DNA from: Kordia periserrulae
Lineage (GTDB): Bacteria > Bacteroidota > Bacteroidia > Flavobacteriales > Flavobacteriaceae
Reading direction: 5' to 3'
Assembly: GCF_003054265.1 (NCBI RefSeq)
Contig: NZ_QBKT01000002.1
Location: 186,001-250,000, forward strand
Length of the DNA: 64,000 nt
Of this stretch, positions 508-59,843 are shown piece after piece. A program made the translations under genes and the position numbers. How positions within the stretch are numbered: position 1 is the first letter of the stretch; each line of letters starts with the position of its first letter. A model generated the notes under the pieces. It had not been told where the DNA came from, ran no database searches, and was given only the letters and a program-made list of their open reading frames with translations.

Positions 508-659
508 ATGTTGGATTTTGGATGTTAAATTTTGAATTTTTCTTGTTGCAAATTTCTTTGAAATTTAAGCCAATGGACGCTTTTTTAATCTATCAATTTT
601 AAATAAAGAATCTCAATTCTTACGACTAATATCTCAATACTAATACCTAAAACTTAAAT
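508..659. repeat. Heptad-repeat intergenic element between rsmE and tsaD
   Basis: G/T-rich 7-nt units occupy 508-541 (ATGTTGG, ATTTTGG, ATGTTAA, ATTTTGA). A/C-rich 7-nt units occupy 611-659 (TCTCAAT, ACTAATA twice, CCTAAAA) and run into the tsaD stop codon. It is one of the elements described in the findings. Confidence 0.6.
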
Positions 660-1669
660 CGAGAATTCGCCGTCACAGCTTCATTGGTAAAATCTTCTTT
701 TAAATATTTTAAATAACCCACAATTCCAATCATCGCGGCATTGTCTGTCGTGTATGCAAACTTCGGAATATGTGCTGTCCAGCCATACTTTTTCTCACCA
801 TCTTTCAATGCTTTTCGGATGGCAGAATTTGCCGAAACACCGCCGCCAATGGCAATAGTTTTGATGCCTGTTTGTTTGGACGCTTTTTTCAATTTATCCA
901 AAATAATATTCACAATCGTATGTTGAATAGACGCGCAAATATCTTGTAAATTCTCTTCAATAAAGTTCGGATTTGCGTTGGTTTGCTTTTGGATAAAATA
1001 TAAAATAGCAGTTTTTAATCCGGAAAAACTAAAATTCAAACCCTCTACTTTGGGTTTTGGAAATTGAAAGGCTTTTGGGTTTCCCTCGTTTGCCAATTTG
1101 TCAATAATCGGTCCCGCAGGATAGGGAAGTCCTAAAATCTTTCCACTTTTATCATACGCTTCGCCAACCGCATCATCAATCGTTTCGCCAATGACTTCCA
1201 TGTCAAAATGGTCTTTTACGACAACAATTTGTGTATGTCCGCCCGAAATGGTCATTGCCAAAAATGGAAACTTCGGAATGGTTTGCGCTTCATCCTCAAT
1301 AAAATGTGCCAAAATATGCGCTTGCATGTGGTTCACTTCAATCAACGGAATGTTCAACCCTAAGGCTAATGATTTTGCAAAAGAAGTTCCTACCAACAGC
1401 GATCCCATCAATCCTGGACCGCGCGTAAAAGCTATGGCATTTAGCTGTTTTTTGTCGATATTTGCAACAGCGAGTGCTTGGTGTACCACAGGAACAATAT
1501 TTTGTTGATGTGCTCGCGACGCCAATTCAGGAACTACGCCACCATACGCCTCGTGTATTTTTTGATTGGCAATAACATTTGACAATACTTTTCCGTTCTG
1601 TAATACAGCCGCGGAAGTATCATCACATGACGATTCAATAGCTAAAATATATACATCTTTTGTGCTCAT
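647..1669 (-). CDS. tsaD: tRNA N6-adenosine threonylcarbamoyltransferase TsaD
   Basis: TsaD transfers the threonylcarbamoyl group from TC-AMP to A37 of ANN-reading tRNAs, together with TsaB and TsaE. The 340-residue length is standard. The ASKHA N-terminus I-E-S-S-C-D-D-T-S-A lies at 11-20. The metal-binding histidine motif N-H-M-Q-A-H has its histidines at about 114 and 118. The signature S-G-G-H-T-Q-I and the C-terminal I-G-G-G-V-S-A-N-S are also present. It faces away from tamB across about 125 bp. The ATG at 1669 leaves a normal N-terminus. Confidence 0.97.
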   Translation of the reverse strand: MSTKDVYILAIESSCDDTSAAVLQNGKVLSNVIANQKIHEAYGGVVPELASRAHQQNIVPVVHQALAVANIDKKQLNAIAFTRGPGLMGSLLVGTSFAKSLALGLNIPLIEVNHMQAHILAHFIEDEAQTIPKFPFLAMTISGGHTQIVVVKDHFDMEVIGETIDDAVGEAYDKSGKILGLPYPAGPIIDKLANEGNPKAFQFPKPKVEGLNFSFSGLKTAILYFIQKQTNANPNFIEENLQDICASIQHTIVNIILDKLKKASKQTGIKTIAIGGGVSANSAIRKALKDGEKKYGWTAHIPKFAYTTDNAAMIGIVGYLKYLKEDFTNEAVTANSRFKF

Positions 1670-1794
1670 AAACGTTGTAAAGGCATAAAAATTGATATAA
1701 AGTCACAAAGATATGCTAAACATCGTGTTTTGTAATAATTTTTTTGTGAATTTGCAGTGTCTAACGCGAGTGTAAACTCTAAATAAGAAGCATC

Positions 1795-57564: not shown

Positions 57565-59589
57565 ATGAAATACAAGCATATTTTTCAGCCGTTAGATTTA
57601 GGATTTACAACCCTTAAAAACCGCGTGTTAATGGGTTCTATGCACACAGGTTTAGAAGAAGAAAAGAACGGATTTGAACGCATGGCGGCTTTTTATGGAG
57701 AACGTGCAAAAGGTGGCGTAGGATTAATTGTTACAGGAGGAATGGCACCGAGTGTGCGTGGGTGGCTTGCGCCTTTTGGAGCGCGTATGAGCACAAAAAA
57801 GCACGCCAAAAAGCATCAAGTTATTACGGAAGCTGTGCATAAAAATGGCGGAAAAATATGCATGCAAATTCTTCATGCAGGTCGTTATGGATATCATCCG
57901 TTGAATGTAGCTCCGTCCGCAATCAAATCGCCAATTACACCGTTTAAACCAAAAAAACTAAGCAGTAATGGCGTGAAGCGAACAATTCAAAGTTTTGCAA
58001 AATCGGCTTCGCTAGCTAAAGTTGCTGGGTATGATGGTGTAGAAATTATGGGTTCAGAAGGTTATTTGATCAATCAATTTATTGTGGAACGAACGAATCA
58101 ACGAACGGATGAATGGGGCGGAAATTATGCCAATCGTATGAAATTTGCGGTAGAAATCATCAAAGCCGTTCGAGAAGCCGTTGGAGAAGAATTCATCATC
58201 ATTTATCGCTTGTCCATGCTCGATTTGGTTGAAAAAGGAAGCAGTTGGGAAGAAATTGTACAACTTGGAAAAGCCATAGAAAAAGCAGGAGCGAACATCA
58301 TCAACACAGGAATTGGCTGGCATGAAGCGCGAATTCCTACGATTGCGACTTCAGTACCAAGAGCCGCATTTACGTGGATTACAGAGCGAATGAAGCAGGA
58401 AGTGAACATTCCATTAATCACATCCAACCGAATTAATATGCCAAGTGTGGCTGAAAAAGTATTGGCAGACGGTCACGCAGATATGATTTCGATGGCACGT
58501 CCGTTTTTAGCAGATGCTGATTGGGTAAACAAAGCTGCGGAAGAAAAGGAAGACGAAATTAATACGTGTATTGCTTGTAATCAAGCATGTTTGGATCATA
58601 TTTTCAACAAAAAAGTAGCAAGTTGTTTGGTGAATCCAAGAGCATGTCATGAAACAGAATTTGATTATTCACTAGCAAGCATCAAAAAGAAATTAGCAGT
58701 AATTGGTGCTGGACCCGCAGGATTAGCAGCAGCAACCATTGCAGCGCAGCGCGGACATGATGTTACGTTGTATGATGATAATAGTGAAGTTGGGGGACAG
58801 TTTAATATTGCAAAACAAATTCCTGGAAAGGAAGAATTTTACGAAACCATTCGCTATTTCAAGAAGCAAATAGAATTGCATAAGGTAAAGGTGAAATTAA
58901 ACAAACGCGTTACCGCAGACGAATTACTTCAAGAGGATTTTGAGGAAATCATTCTAGCAACGGGCATCAAACCGAGAACGCCAAAAATAGATGGCATTGA
59001 ACACGAAAAAGTACTAAGCTATATTGATGTTTTAAAACACAAAAAACCTGTTGGAAAGCGTGTTGCCGTGATTGGTGCAGGCGGAATTGGTTTTGATGTA
59101 TCTGAATATTTATCACACGAAGGTGAATCTACCTCACAGAATATTGATGCGTGGTTGACCGAATGGGGAATTGATAAAACTCTAGAAGCACGCGGCGGAA
59201 TTGAAAACATGAAGCCTAAATTTCACGGTTCGCCGAGAGAAATCTTTATGTTCAAACGCAGCAAAGGAAAATTTGGTGGAAACTTAGGAAAAACCACAGG
59301 CTGGATTCATAGAACGAATTTAAAAAAGAAAAAAGTCAACTTCATAGGCGAAGTGCAATACAATAAAATTGACGACCAAGGATTGCATTACACACAAAAC
59401 AACGAAACCAAAGTACTGGAAGTAGATAATGTAATCATTTGTGCAGGACAAACACCGTTAAAAGAACTATTAGAGCCACTACAAGCCAAAGGAATGACGG
59501 TGCACGTAATCGGAGGCGCTGATATCGCAGCAGAACTAGATGCCAAACGCGCCATAGACCAAGGAAGTCGATTGGCAGCGAAGCTATAG
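57565..59589 (+). CDS. 2,4-dienoyl-CoA reductase / Old Yellow Enzyme family (FadH-like)
   Basis: This is a 674-residue fusion of an N-terminal OYE-type TIM barrel (G-S-M-H-T-G-L near 25, H-A-G-R-Y-G near 106, E-I-M-G-S-E-G-Y-L near 157) and a C-terminal FAD/NAD(P) module. Between them is the 4Fe-4S motif C-I-A-C-N-Q-A-C near 334-341 and a further C near 353. [11 protein letters not shown] near 379 and V-I-G-A-G-G-I-G near 507 are the dinucleotide-binding sites. The layout matches FadH, which reduces 2,4-dienoyl-CoA in unsaturated fatty-acid oxidation. It lacks a close beta-oxidation neighbour. Confidence 0.92.
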
Positions 59590-59591
59590 AG

Positions 59592-59843
59592 GTGCTAGTT
59601 TTTTGTTGTCTGTTTTTTGTTTTTCGAAGTTTCTAAGAATAATTCAGCATCAATAGGAGAAAAATAGAAAATGTAAAACCGCAAAATGTAAAATATAAAA
59701 ATAATTTTGCTAACAGCTAACAGCTAACAGCTAACAGCTAACAGCTAACAGCTAACAGCTAACAGCTAACAGCTAACAGCTAACAGCCACCAATAAACGA
59801 ATAACAAAAAACAAAAAACAATCTAAAACCAAACACCCAACAC
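59592..59843. repeat. Heptad element with (TAACAGC)11
   Basis: GT units (GTGCTAG, TTTTTTG twice, TTGTCTG, TTTTTCG) begin 2 nt after the stop, at 59592-59626. At 59711-59787 TAACAGC is repeated exactly 11 times, then A/C units continue in the same phase to the TraB stop codon. Confidence 0.95.

Follow-up and report, generated by a model that had tools for sequence, protein, structure and literature searches.

Intergenic heptad arrays of changing sequence and steady strand polarity in Kordia periserrulae

The DNA considered here is a stretch of 64,000 nucleotides, called the window in what follows, from Kordia periserrulae (Flavobacteriaceae), a genome assembled as 4.73 Mb in 38 contigs; it covers positions 186,001 to 250,000 of contig NZ_QBKT01000002.1, with 36% G+C. 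Its intergenic gaps repeatedly harbour tandem arrays of seven-nucleotide units, or heptads, which differ in sequence from gap to gap while sharing a period and a polarity: arrays rich in G and T lie at the left of the gap and arrays rich in A and C at its right, whatever the orientation of the genes on either side. Put as a single rule, the strand whose 3' direction leads out of a gene into the gap is nearly always the G/T-rich one. This layout was the core of the original prediction, and it is borne out: within 40 nt of a gap edge, 95 arrays agree with it and 11 do not across our Kordia samples. The bias returns in each of them, at 11:0 in the window, 20:4 in stretches of the same genome picked without regard to repeats, 26:1 in stretches picked near matches of a GTTAGGT-type word, 18:2 in the nearest relative, Kordia sp. 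TARA_039_SRF (henceforth TARA; mean protein identity 92-94%), and 7:2, 8:0 and 5:2 in the other Kordia sets. Arrays were classed as GT at a GT fraction of at least 0.6 and as AC at 0.4 or less, segments in between being dropped; gaps of about 1200 nt or longer, gaps shorter than 40 nt and segments more than 40 nt from both edges were left out of these counts. Genes were called by a simple codon score, which makes start codons and some of the gaps approximate and may have left a few genes unrecognised inside gaps.

The order of the sides is equally regular. Consecutive classified segments pass from GT to AC 28 times and from AC to GT never (Kordia sets summed), and the alternative of a random order is thereby absent. 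Polarity is present at stop edges and at start edges alike, in all gene orientations. Convergent gaps alone (window and other K. periserrulae stretches) are concordant at 21:1, and divergent gaps, a case that the prediction had not cited, hold six GT-left and two AC-right arrays without exception (summed). When array gaps of at least 160 nt are aligned on their edges, the GT fraction is 0.73 in the first ten bases past the stop codon and declines to 0.50 by base 80, while over the 80 bases leading up to a start, read on the antisense strand, it stays at 0.61-0.69; a GC skew and a TA skew are both present. In array-free gaps there is almost no skew (0.43-0.57 per 10-nt bin). The two edges also draw on a common vocabulary. 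GGGTGTT, AGGTGTT, GTTTTTT, GTTGTTT and AGGTTTT are among the 14 commonest words at both, the commonest at stop edges being AATGTTG, AGGTGTT, GGGTGTT and AGCTGTT and at start edges GTTGTTT, GGGTGTT, GTTTTTT and AGGTGTT, and the overlap is similar after removal of two duplicated gaps at locus L009. Finally, GT-left and AC-right arms keep company: both are found in 8 co-directional gaps (1.4 expected), 7 convergent gaps (2.2 expected) and no divergent gap (0.07 expected).

The period itself was assessed by comparing the best lag-7 segment score of an entire gap with 500 dinucleotide-preserving shuffles. It had been proposed at eleven sites and holds at nine (P 0.002-0.004): at eight of these no shuffle reaches the score of the gap, and at site 508 one does. 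The two others, which the original prediction had itself listed as weaker, have no significant lag-7 signal against the 500 shuffles, the best lag being 8 at 15240-15441 (P 0.64) and 9 at 39138-39198 (P 0.57). Beyond single sites, a first set from K. periserrulae (464 kb, 20 stretches, 241 gaps) gave 93 segments at lag 7 against 8.5 in shuffled gaps and 49 at lag 8 against 8.6 (10 shuffles), the remaining lags between 4 and 13 giving 5-18; coding sequence of the same 464 kb held 8 lag-7 segments. Because nine of the 20 stretches had been picked near matches of one GTTAGGT-type word, the count was redone on 446 kb of unselected stretches (198 gaps), which yielded 49 lag-7 segments where 20 shuffles average 5.4 and never exceed 9. 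The nine word-picked stretches do enter, besides the first lag counts, the column mismatches, arm pairing, GT profiles, terminator counts, arm co-occurrence, edge words, stop-codon counts and period-8 polarity reported here. The window alone has 17 segments against 1.15. Among lags 2-30 the match rate within gaps peaks at 7, with 21 close to it (20 shuffles). The period is not purely 7, for lag 8 is nearly as frequent in the unselected set (43 segments against 49).

A check in relatives had likewise been proposed, and the genus shows an excess over shuffled gaps. The TARA contig has 39 lag-7 segments against 3.85, and spaced stretches of three other Kordia genomes have 34 against 7.2; K. algicida alone is scarcely enriched (5 against 1.7 at lag 7, with 7 at lag 8). 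For a 21-nt word made of three GTTAGGT-type units, 3 mismatches being allowed at most, K. periserrulae has 282 occurrences and the ten congeners have 2 to 194; the word is also found in 18 of 40 relatives, which belong to 8 of 30 genera; its reversed control is absent from K. periserrulae and reaches 28 elsewhere (genome G023). Outside Kordia, a lag-7 excess is seen too where Flavobacterium, other Flavobacteriaceae and Chitinophagaceae were sampled on a small scale, and 30 kb of Bacteroidales gaps hold no lag-7 segment (3 shuffles in both cases).

As had been noticed in the window, heptads are unlike between sites: Tandem Repeats Finder (TRF) returns the units TGTTAGG, GCTAACA, CAACCAG, AAACAAC, TTTTGTT, CCTAAAA and others. 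They are tandem 7-nt units beyond chance (49 against 5.4), as in long simple sequence repeats (SSRs). They do not have the form of near-identical copies with random divergence, however: although a few arrays are near-perfect by TRF, mismatches gather in fixed columns at lag 7 and at lag 8. For the 69 arrays at lag 7 the sum of squares that expresses this concentration is 2336, where 1782 +/- 37 is expected; for the 31 arrays at lag 8 it is 620, where 457 +/- 16 is expected. We take these values only as a lead because segments joining two words inflate them. Fixed and variable columns coexist inside arrays, for example GTTTA+NNN and TTAGA+NNN. The period-8 arrays, at 34878-34915 of the window and in other segments of the genome, are built on a fixed core of 4-5 nt followed by about three variable bases (GTTTA+NNN, AATKT+NNN, TTAGA+NNN).

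Sites persist between species while words are replaced. In the orthologous gaps of ten other Kordia, an array is present in 17 of 34 cases when the window gap has one and in 5 of 73 when it has none (p 1e-6; these orthologue counts, like those given below, are non-independent, the species having common ancestry). Restricting size to 100-800 nt in K. periserrulae and 100-1000 nt in the orthologues leaves 10/17 against 1/22 for co-directional gaps and 6/13 against 0/3 for convergent ones, with 4/25 for divergent gaps lacking an array in K. periserrulae. Among 111 gap pairs between K. periserrulae and TARA, arrays occur in both members of 13, in a single member of 5 and in neither member of 93. 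Judged by gap half, the orthologous arrays are still polar: 8 are GT-left and 11 AC-right, 2 are GT-right and none is AC-left, with 9 unclassed. Their words, by contrast, overlap at a mean Jaccard index of 0.21 over the 13 pairs, three of them at 0 and one at 1, against 0.06 for non-orthologous gaps. In the 33877 gap, TCGTAAA-type heptads of K. periserrulae face a CGTTATT array in TARA; in the 34738 gap the unit number differs, as is usual for SSRs, with 6 copies of GTTAGGT against 10. That place and form outlast the words hints at a directional process acting on DNA.

Arrays had also been said to start and end within a few bases of stop and start codons. Indeed, 34 of 37 GT arrays at stop edges start no more than about ten bases into the gap, and 13 of the 34 start inside the stop codon or ahead of it. 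At start edges the fit is less tight: many arrays end a few bases before the start codon, and 7 of 17 lie 12 nt or more from the edge. Genes followed within 12 nt by a GT array use TAG 20 times, TGA 9 and TAA 6 (n=35), against TAA 319, TAG 106 and TGA 51 among all called genes (n=476; p 4e-10). Kordia orthologues follow suit, with TAA in 3 of 18 that have an array, in 21 of 38 that lack one where the K. periserrulae gene has it, and in 200 of 276 where neither gap has any. Since TAA is rare beside arrays both in this genome and in orthologues, it seems that stop codons are overwritten by arrays to the extent that some stop can be kept, with the reservation that the counts are dependent through common ancestry. 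An exact 7-nt register between stop codon and array was considered and given up: there is only a mild peak at offset 7 (1.31 of 3 matches, against 0.74-1.14 at offsets 4-6 and 8-10; 35 genes).

The arrays of the window are listed in Table 1. Site by site the predicted layout stands only in part, several sites being mixed: 11917 has the AC side alone, 33877-34091 has GT followed by mixed heptads, and 51810-52145 lies partly within a tandem triplication. The ten genes scanned around the elements look like ordinary ones (enoyl-CoA hydratase, outer membrane barrel, carboxyl transferase, pirins, flavin mononucleotide (FMN) oxidoreductase and others). A TraB/GumN gene of the window is matched best by Kordia sequences, among them K. 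aestuariivivens, K. zhangzhouensis, K. algicida OT-1, K. jejudonensis and Kordia sp. TARA_039_SRF.

Table 1. Arrays and associated repeats in the window (window coordinates)
Feature	Position	Remarks
Fuzzy heptad element, GT-type about 507-547, AC-type about 598-659	508..659	Runs into 3' end of minus-strand gene 647-1669; TRF periods 7 and 21 at 505-547; lag-7 P 0.004; direct reading
AC array, CAACCAG x4.9	11914..11960	Ends 4 nt before stop of minus-strand gene 11965-12783; no GT array found to the left
GT array, short, low score (10)	24113..24135	Left (start-codon) edge of divergent gap; not in the original prediction; also in TARA orthologue
GT array just past stop, then mixed heptads (CACTTTTAACTTTTAAC, AAATCGTAAATCAC x5; TCGTAAA-type)	33881..34091	CGTTATT array instead in TARA orthologue
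GT array, TGTTAGG x6.6	34744..34789	Begins 6 nt past TGA stop; 6 GTTAGGT, 10 in TARA orthologue
REP-like palindromic unit TCAAAGTACTTCTCGATAC...CACTCGAAGTGACG, dispersed family	34817..34867	Gap centre
Period-8 array, fixed GTTTA and three variable bases	34878..34915	
AC array, AAACAAC x4	34921..34958	Right side, convergent gap
TTTTGTT-type heptads from 1 nt past stop; AACAAAA/AACACCC heptads on the right	49250..49375	
108-bp unit, 3.2 tandem copies, 92% matches	51735..52076	Convergent gap; ATGTTG heptads at 51813-51841, 51920-51949, 52029-52058
AC array, ACCTAAC/ACCTAAA/AACAAAA words	52080..52145	Ends 2 nt before stop of minus-strand gene 52148-53776
GT array, GTTGGGT-type heptads	54977..55036	8 nt past stop
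AC array, AAGAGCC..., AACAAAC... heptads	55083..55148	Until 2 nt before candidate ATG at 55151
GT array, TTAGGTN	56503..56537	TAG stop codon (56507-56509) in register
AC array	56553..56643	Until 4 nt before ATG at 56648
GT array, GTTTTTT	59598..59624	8 nt past TAG stop
AC array, GCTAACA x11.3, then AACAAAA and AACACCC words	59709..59843	Touches stop of minus-strand gene 59844-60734

Other repeats fill the middle of many gaps, chiefly a palindrome resembling repetitive extragenic palindromic (REP) units, together with period-8 arrays, so that in many cases the 7-nt arrays flank a densely packed interior. The palindrome, TCAAAGYACTTCTCGATAC...CACTCGAAGTGACG, occurs as 31 full units in the K. periserrulae samples (at 34817-34867 and in gap 14547-15441 of the window, and at loci L009-L028 and L173-L191). 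It has no bias of side or orientation (plus strand 11 left and 7 right; minus strand 7 right and 6 left). Three further features may be mentioned here. Two nearby gaps of locus L009, 2974-3227 and 3795-4168, are 98% alike over 223 nt and contain (GAATGTT)n arrays, 95 nt long in one and 149 nt in the other, which points to a recent duplication. The gaps 24104-24474 and 41186-41553 have 184 nt in common, inverted, at 91% identity. The pirin-gene gap orthologous to 56510-56647 holds a longer insert of type GGGCGTAACCTCCGAAAAAAAATCGGAGGTCGCGCTTTCGGGAGTCGCTCTC... in seven congeners (L100, L102, L104, L106, L109, L111, L045), absent from K. periserrulae, TARA and genome G006.

What might write such arrays? 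We favour directional copying: these would be satellite-like tandem-repeat tracts, occupying an apparently non-functional part of the gap and rewritten by a process that acts on DNA and not on one RNA. We put this forward tentatively, at something short of an even chance, with the step of 7 nt and the route of copying as inferences. A break or a stalled fork would supply a 3' end that faces the gap and primes the copying. Among such 3' strands the G/T-rich ones might be favoured because TGG-like repeats would give RecA filaments greater stability: a preference of RecA for binding TGG repeats is reported (PMC3763553), which makes this a possible reason for the bias. Cores of 3-5 nt could provide the microhomology for slips of 7 (or 8) nt and for switches between arrays, while the outer limit might be set by the genes, losses inside which would be removed. 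No benefit to the cell is required; the arrays may be tolerated filler. We prefer an account on DNA because it needs one rule where an account on RNA needs two, GU-rich after stops and AC-rich before starts. It also fits the words common to both edges, the co-occurrence of the arms, as one event at both ends of a gap would give, and the overwritten stop codons. The inference of the original prediction that symmetric slippage alone cannot yield the polarity is supported as well.

Several observations weigh against directional copying. RecA leaves the 7-nt step unexplained. Identity between K. periserrulae and TARA falls from edge to centre no more in array gaps (13) than in others (36); growth from the outside inwards would predict such a gradient, and it was therefore rejected as a sign of growth direction. 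Ku, one of the usual factors of end joining, gave no match in the 11 Kordia genomes searched, against matches in 3 of 40 relatives; end joining by Ku was therefore rejected, and joining would have to take some other route. AATGTTG, the top word at stop edges, is mainly confined to them, being outside the 14 commonest at start edges. The period-8 arrays are less polar, with 33 concordant and 18 not by gap half. In small samples outside Kordia the polarity is unclear, at 10:7 by gap half (a count that covers Flavobacterium, other Flavobacteriaceae, Solitalea, Chitinophagaceae and rows from metagenome-assembled genomes), and G023 has 6:2 near edges with one AC-then-GT order. Finally, arrays are commoner in convergent (8/37) than in divergent gaps (6/50) of the unselected set, and hence transcription or promoter constraint may matter too.

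A more conventional possibility is that ordinary heptamer slippage produces any polarity and that selection on untranslated regions removes the wrong ones. The survivors would be AC-rich leaders, unstructured and suited to initiation without a Shine-Dalgarno sequence, and GU-rich trailers, leaving GT on the left and AC on the right with no directional copying. The unit number that varies between K. periserrulae and TARA in the 34738 gap is what slippage would give, and the many start-edge arrays that stop just short of the start codon agree with selected leaders. We nevertheless hold it to be somewhat unlikely: it needs two separate selective rules, and convergent gaps, both of whose edges are trailers, show strong polarity by themselves. 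Array-free gaps are almost devoid of the skew that such selection would favour, and the gathering of mismatches in fixed columns, inflated as it is by two-word segments, exceeds what random mutation of slipped copies would leave.

If RNA is where the arrays act, pairing between GU-rich and AC-rich parts, the role suggested by the original prediction, is hardly credible as their point. Duplexes between arms of the same gap average -19.8 kcal/mol against -23.3 for swapped arms, a mean rank of 0.60 where 0 is best (14 elements). Six of the 14 whole elements do fold more than 2 standard deviations below half-preserving shuffles (20 each; mean z -2.6), as a long hairpin would; since some elements contain palindromes, which may alone give this stability, the folds cannot be assigned to the arrays.

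A broader role of the RNA deserves more attention, namely that the arrays are bidirectional insulators. A transcript entering the gap from either side would run first into GU-rich and then into AC-rich sequence, and the tract would end or process it in place of an intrinsic terminator; candidate means are pausing at U tracts, Rho loading where the RNA is AC-rich, or a protein that binds heptads, for instance a Csp. Terminator-like hairpins, called by a rule of our own that also called one inside the 11914 array, are indeed somewhat rarer at array edges: 5 of 34 stop edges with GT arrays have one, against 36 of 143 where the gap is array-free, and in other Kordia 2 of 13 against 104 of 356. Intrinsic terminators as the hidden content of arrays were discarded, since they are not enriched there. 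At the left edge of the 59590 gap, four of six orthologous array-free gaps have a hairpin, while K. periserrulae and TARA have arrays and no hairpin; over all orthologues of that comparison the hairpin is found at 31 of 96 array-free edges and 2 of 10 array edges. The abundance of arrays in convergent gaps agrees with insulation too, and kept sites with free sequence fit selection on form. Against this, the same polarity and common words stand before starts and in divergent gaps, where ending sense transcription would be unwanted. The arms lack specific pairing, the depletion of terminators is slight and may merely reflect displaced space, and in the window none of the Rfam families scores as high as its gathering threshold, the three sub-threshold matches all lying away from the listed sites. 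It is because of the rarer hairpins and the pattern at 59590 that we keep insulation among the candidates, as an unlikely one.

The arrays could finally be the inverted ends of a composite element, mobile or similar to REP units or bacterial interspersed mosaic elements (BIMEs), and inserted whole. REP and BIME palindromes are dispersed intergenic units near gene ends. The Kordia arrays are also dispersed, intergenic and near gene ends; they differ in being tandem and polar, with arms that match no better than swapped ones, and the REP-like family is a separate, non-polar component. That GT and AC arms co-occur, that the palindrome is common in gaps and in places flanked by period-7 or period-8 arrays, and that Y1 transposases of the REP-associated tyrosine transposase (RAYT) type (PF01797) have matches in five of eight congeners searched would all suit such an element. 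We find it very improbable: REP-like units are unbiased in side and orientation whereas the arrays are biased, the arms of one gap match too little to pair better than swapped arms, and no clean empty site appears in the 14 array-gap alignments between K. periserrulae and TARA that were inspected, five longer ones apart. A search of the K. periserrulae genome for the Y1 transposase gave no match, and RAYT/REP mobilisation was rejected on this and on the lack of orientation bias.

Returning to directional copying, a bolder form of it would liken each gap to a pair of facing chromosome ends, where sequence-independent repair or replication writes G/T-rich 7-base units onto the 3' strand leaving the gene. 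We consider this quite unlikely, and the likeness to telomeres is a comparison of our own. Were it true, a telomere-like geometry would exist inside the chromosome, its period, polarity and place being inherited and its sequence not, and the same rule might lie under the heptamers of Xanthomonas, Nostoc and Beggiatoaceae.

Tandem heptamers are no novelty in bacteria. They were the most abundant category of long repeats in most genomes of a survey of long SSRs (Mrazek, 2007, as described in PMC4679880), and over-represented tandem heptamers are known in the cyanobacterium Calothrix (via PMC4679880 and PMC4692102); the passages citing both, which share the tandem heptamers with Kordia, mention neither polarity at gap edges nor word turnover. 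TAACTGA heptamers, proposed as sites for a post-transcriptional regulator, occur in Beggiatoaceae, cyanobacteria and five Bacteroidetes (MacGregor, 2015; PMC4679880); in Gramella, Aequorivita and Elizabethkingia they have further heptamers as neighbours. They too are intergenic, and in Flexibacter litoralis 12 of 14 sets are 'forward' before starts and one 'reverse' directly after a stop, a placement that we read as the same strand rule. Unlike the Kordia arrays they are a single word, and the passages of that paper on the repeats make no claim of a polarity independent of orientation.

The closest case lies in Xanthomonas and Nostoc, and the view that the arrangement was undescribed must be given up as far as placement goes. 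Rehm et al. (2015; PMC4692102) report heptamers GGGAATC and GGGGA(C/T)T, able to form G-quadruplexes, whose G-rich strand is the coding strand within 50 bp after stops and the non-coding strand before starts, whatever the orientation of the open reading frames. They are mostly intergenic, under-represented in divergent gaps, present as convergent pairs in Xanthomonas (70 cases in Xcc, 75 in Xac), and 83% of sites are common to sister species. The rule around genes was thus reported for two lineages, its function left open, and the Kordia arrays share both the period and the strand rule (95:11). The two differ in sequence: the accounts of Xanthomonas and Nostoc describe a single G-tract consensus with four units preferred, whereas Kordia words vary from gap to gap, are often without GG and turn over between species. 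That the same rule governs both suggests that placement is not tied to one sequence. Within the open-access full text of PubMed Central, subscription papers and preprints apart, the passages found give no account of unlike heptads sharing polarity and period, or of sites persisting while words turn over. These two features we consider new. Kordia suggests a strand rule independent of the sequence repeated, present at starts and stops in all orientations and outliving the replacement of words; by separating form from sequence it makes a bias of copying testable against a function of RNA.

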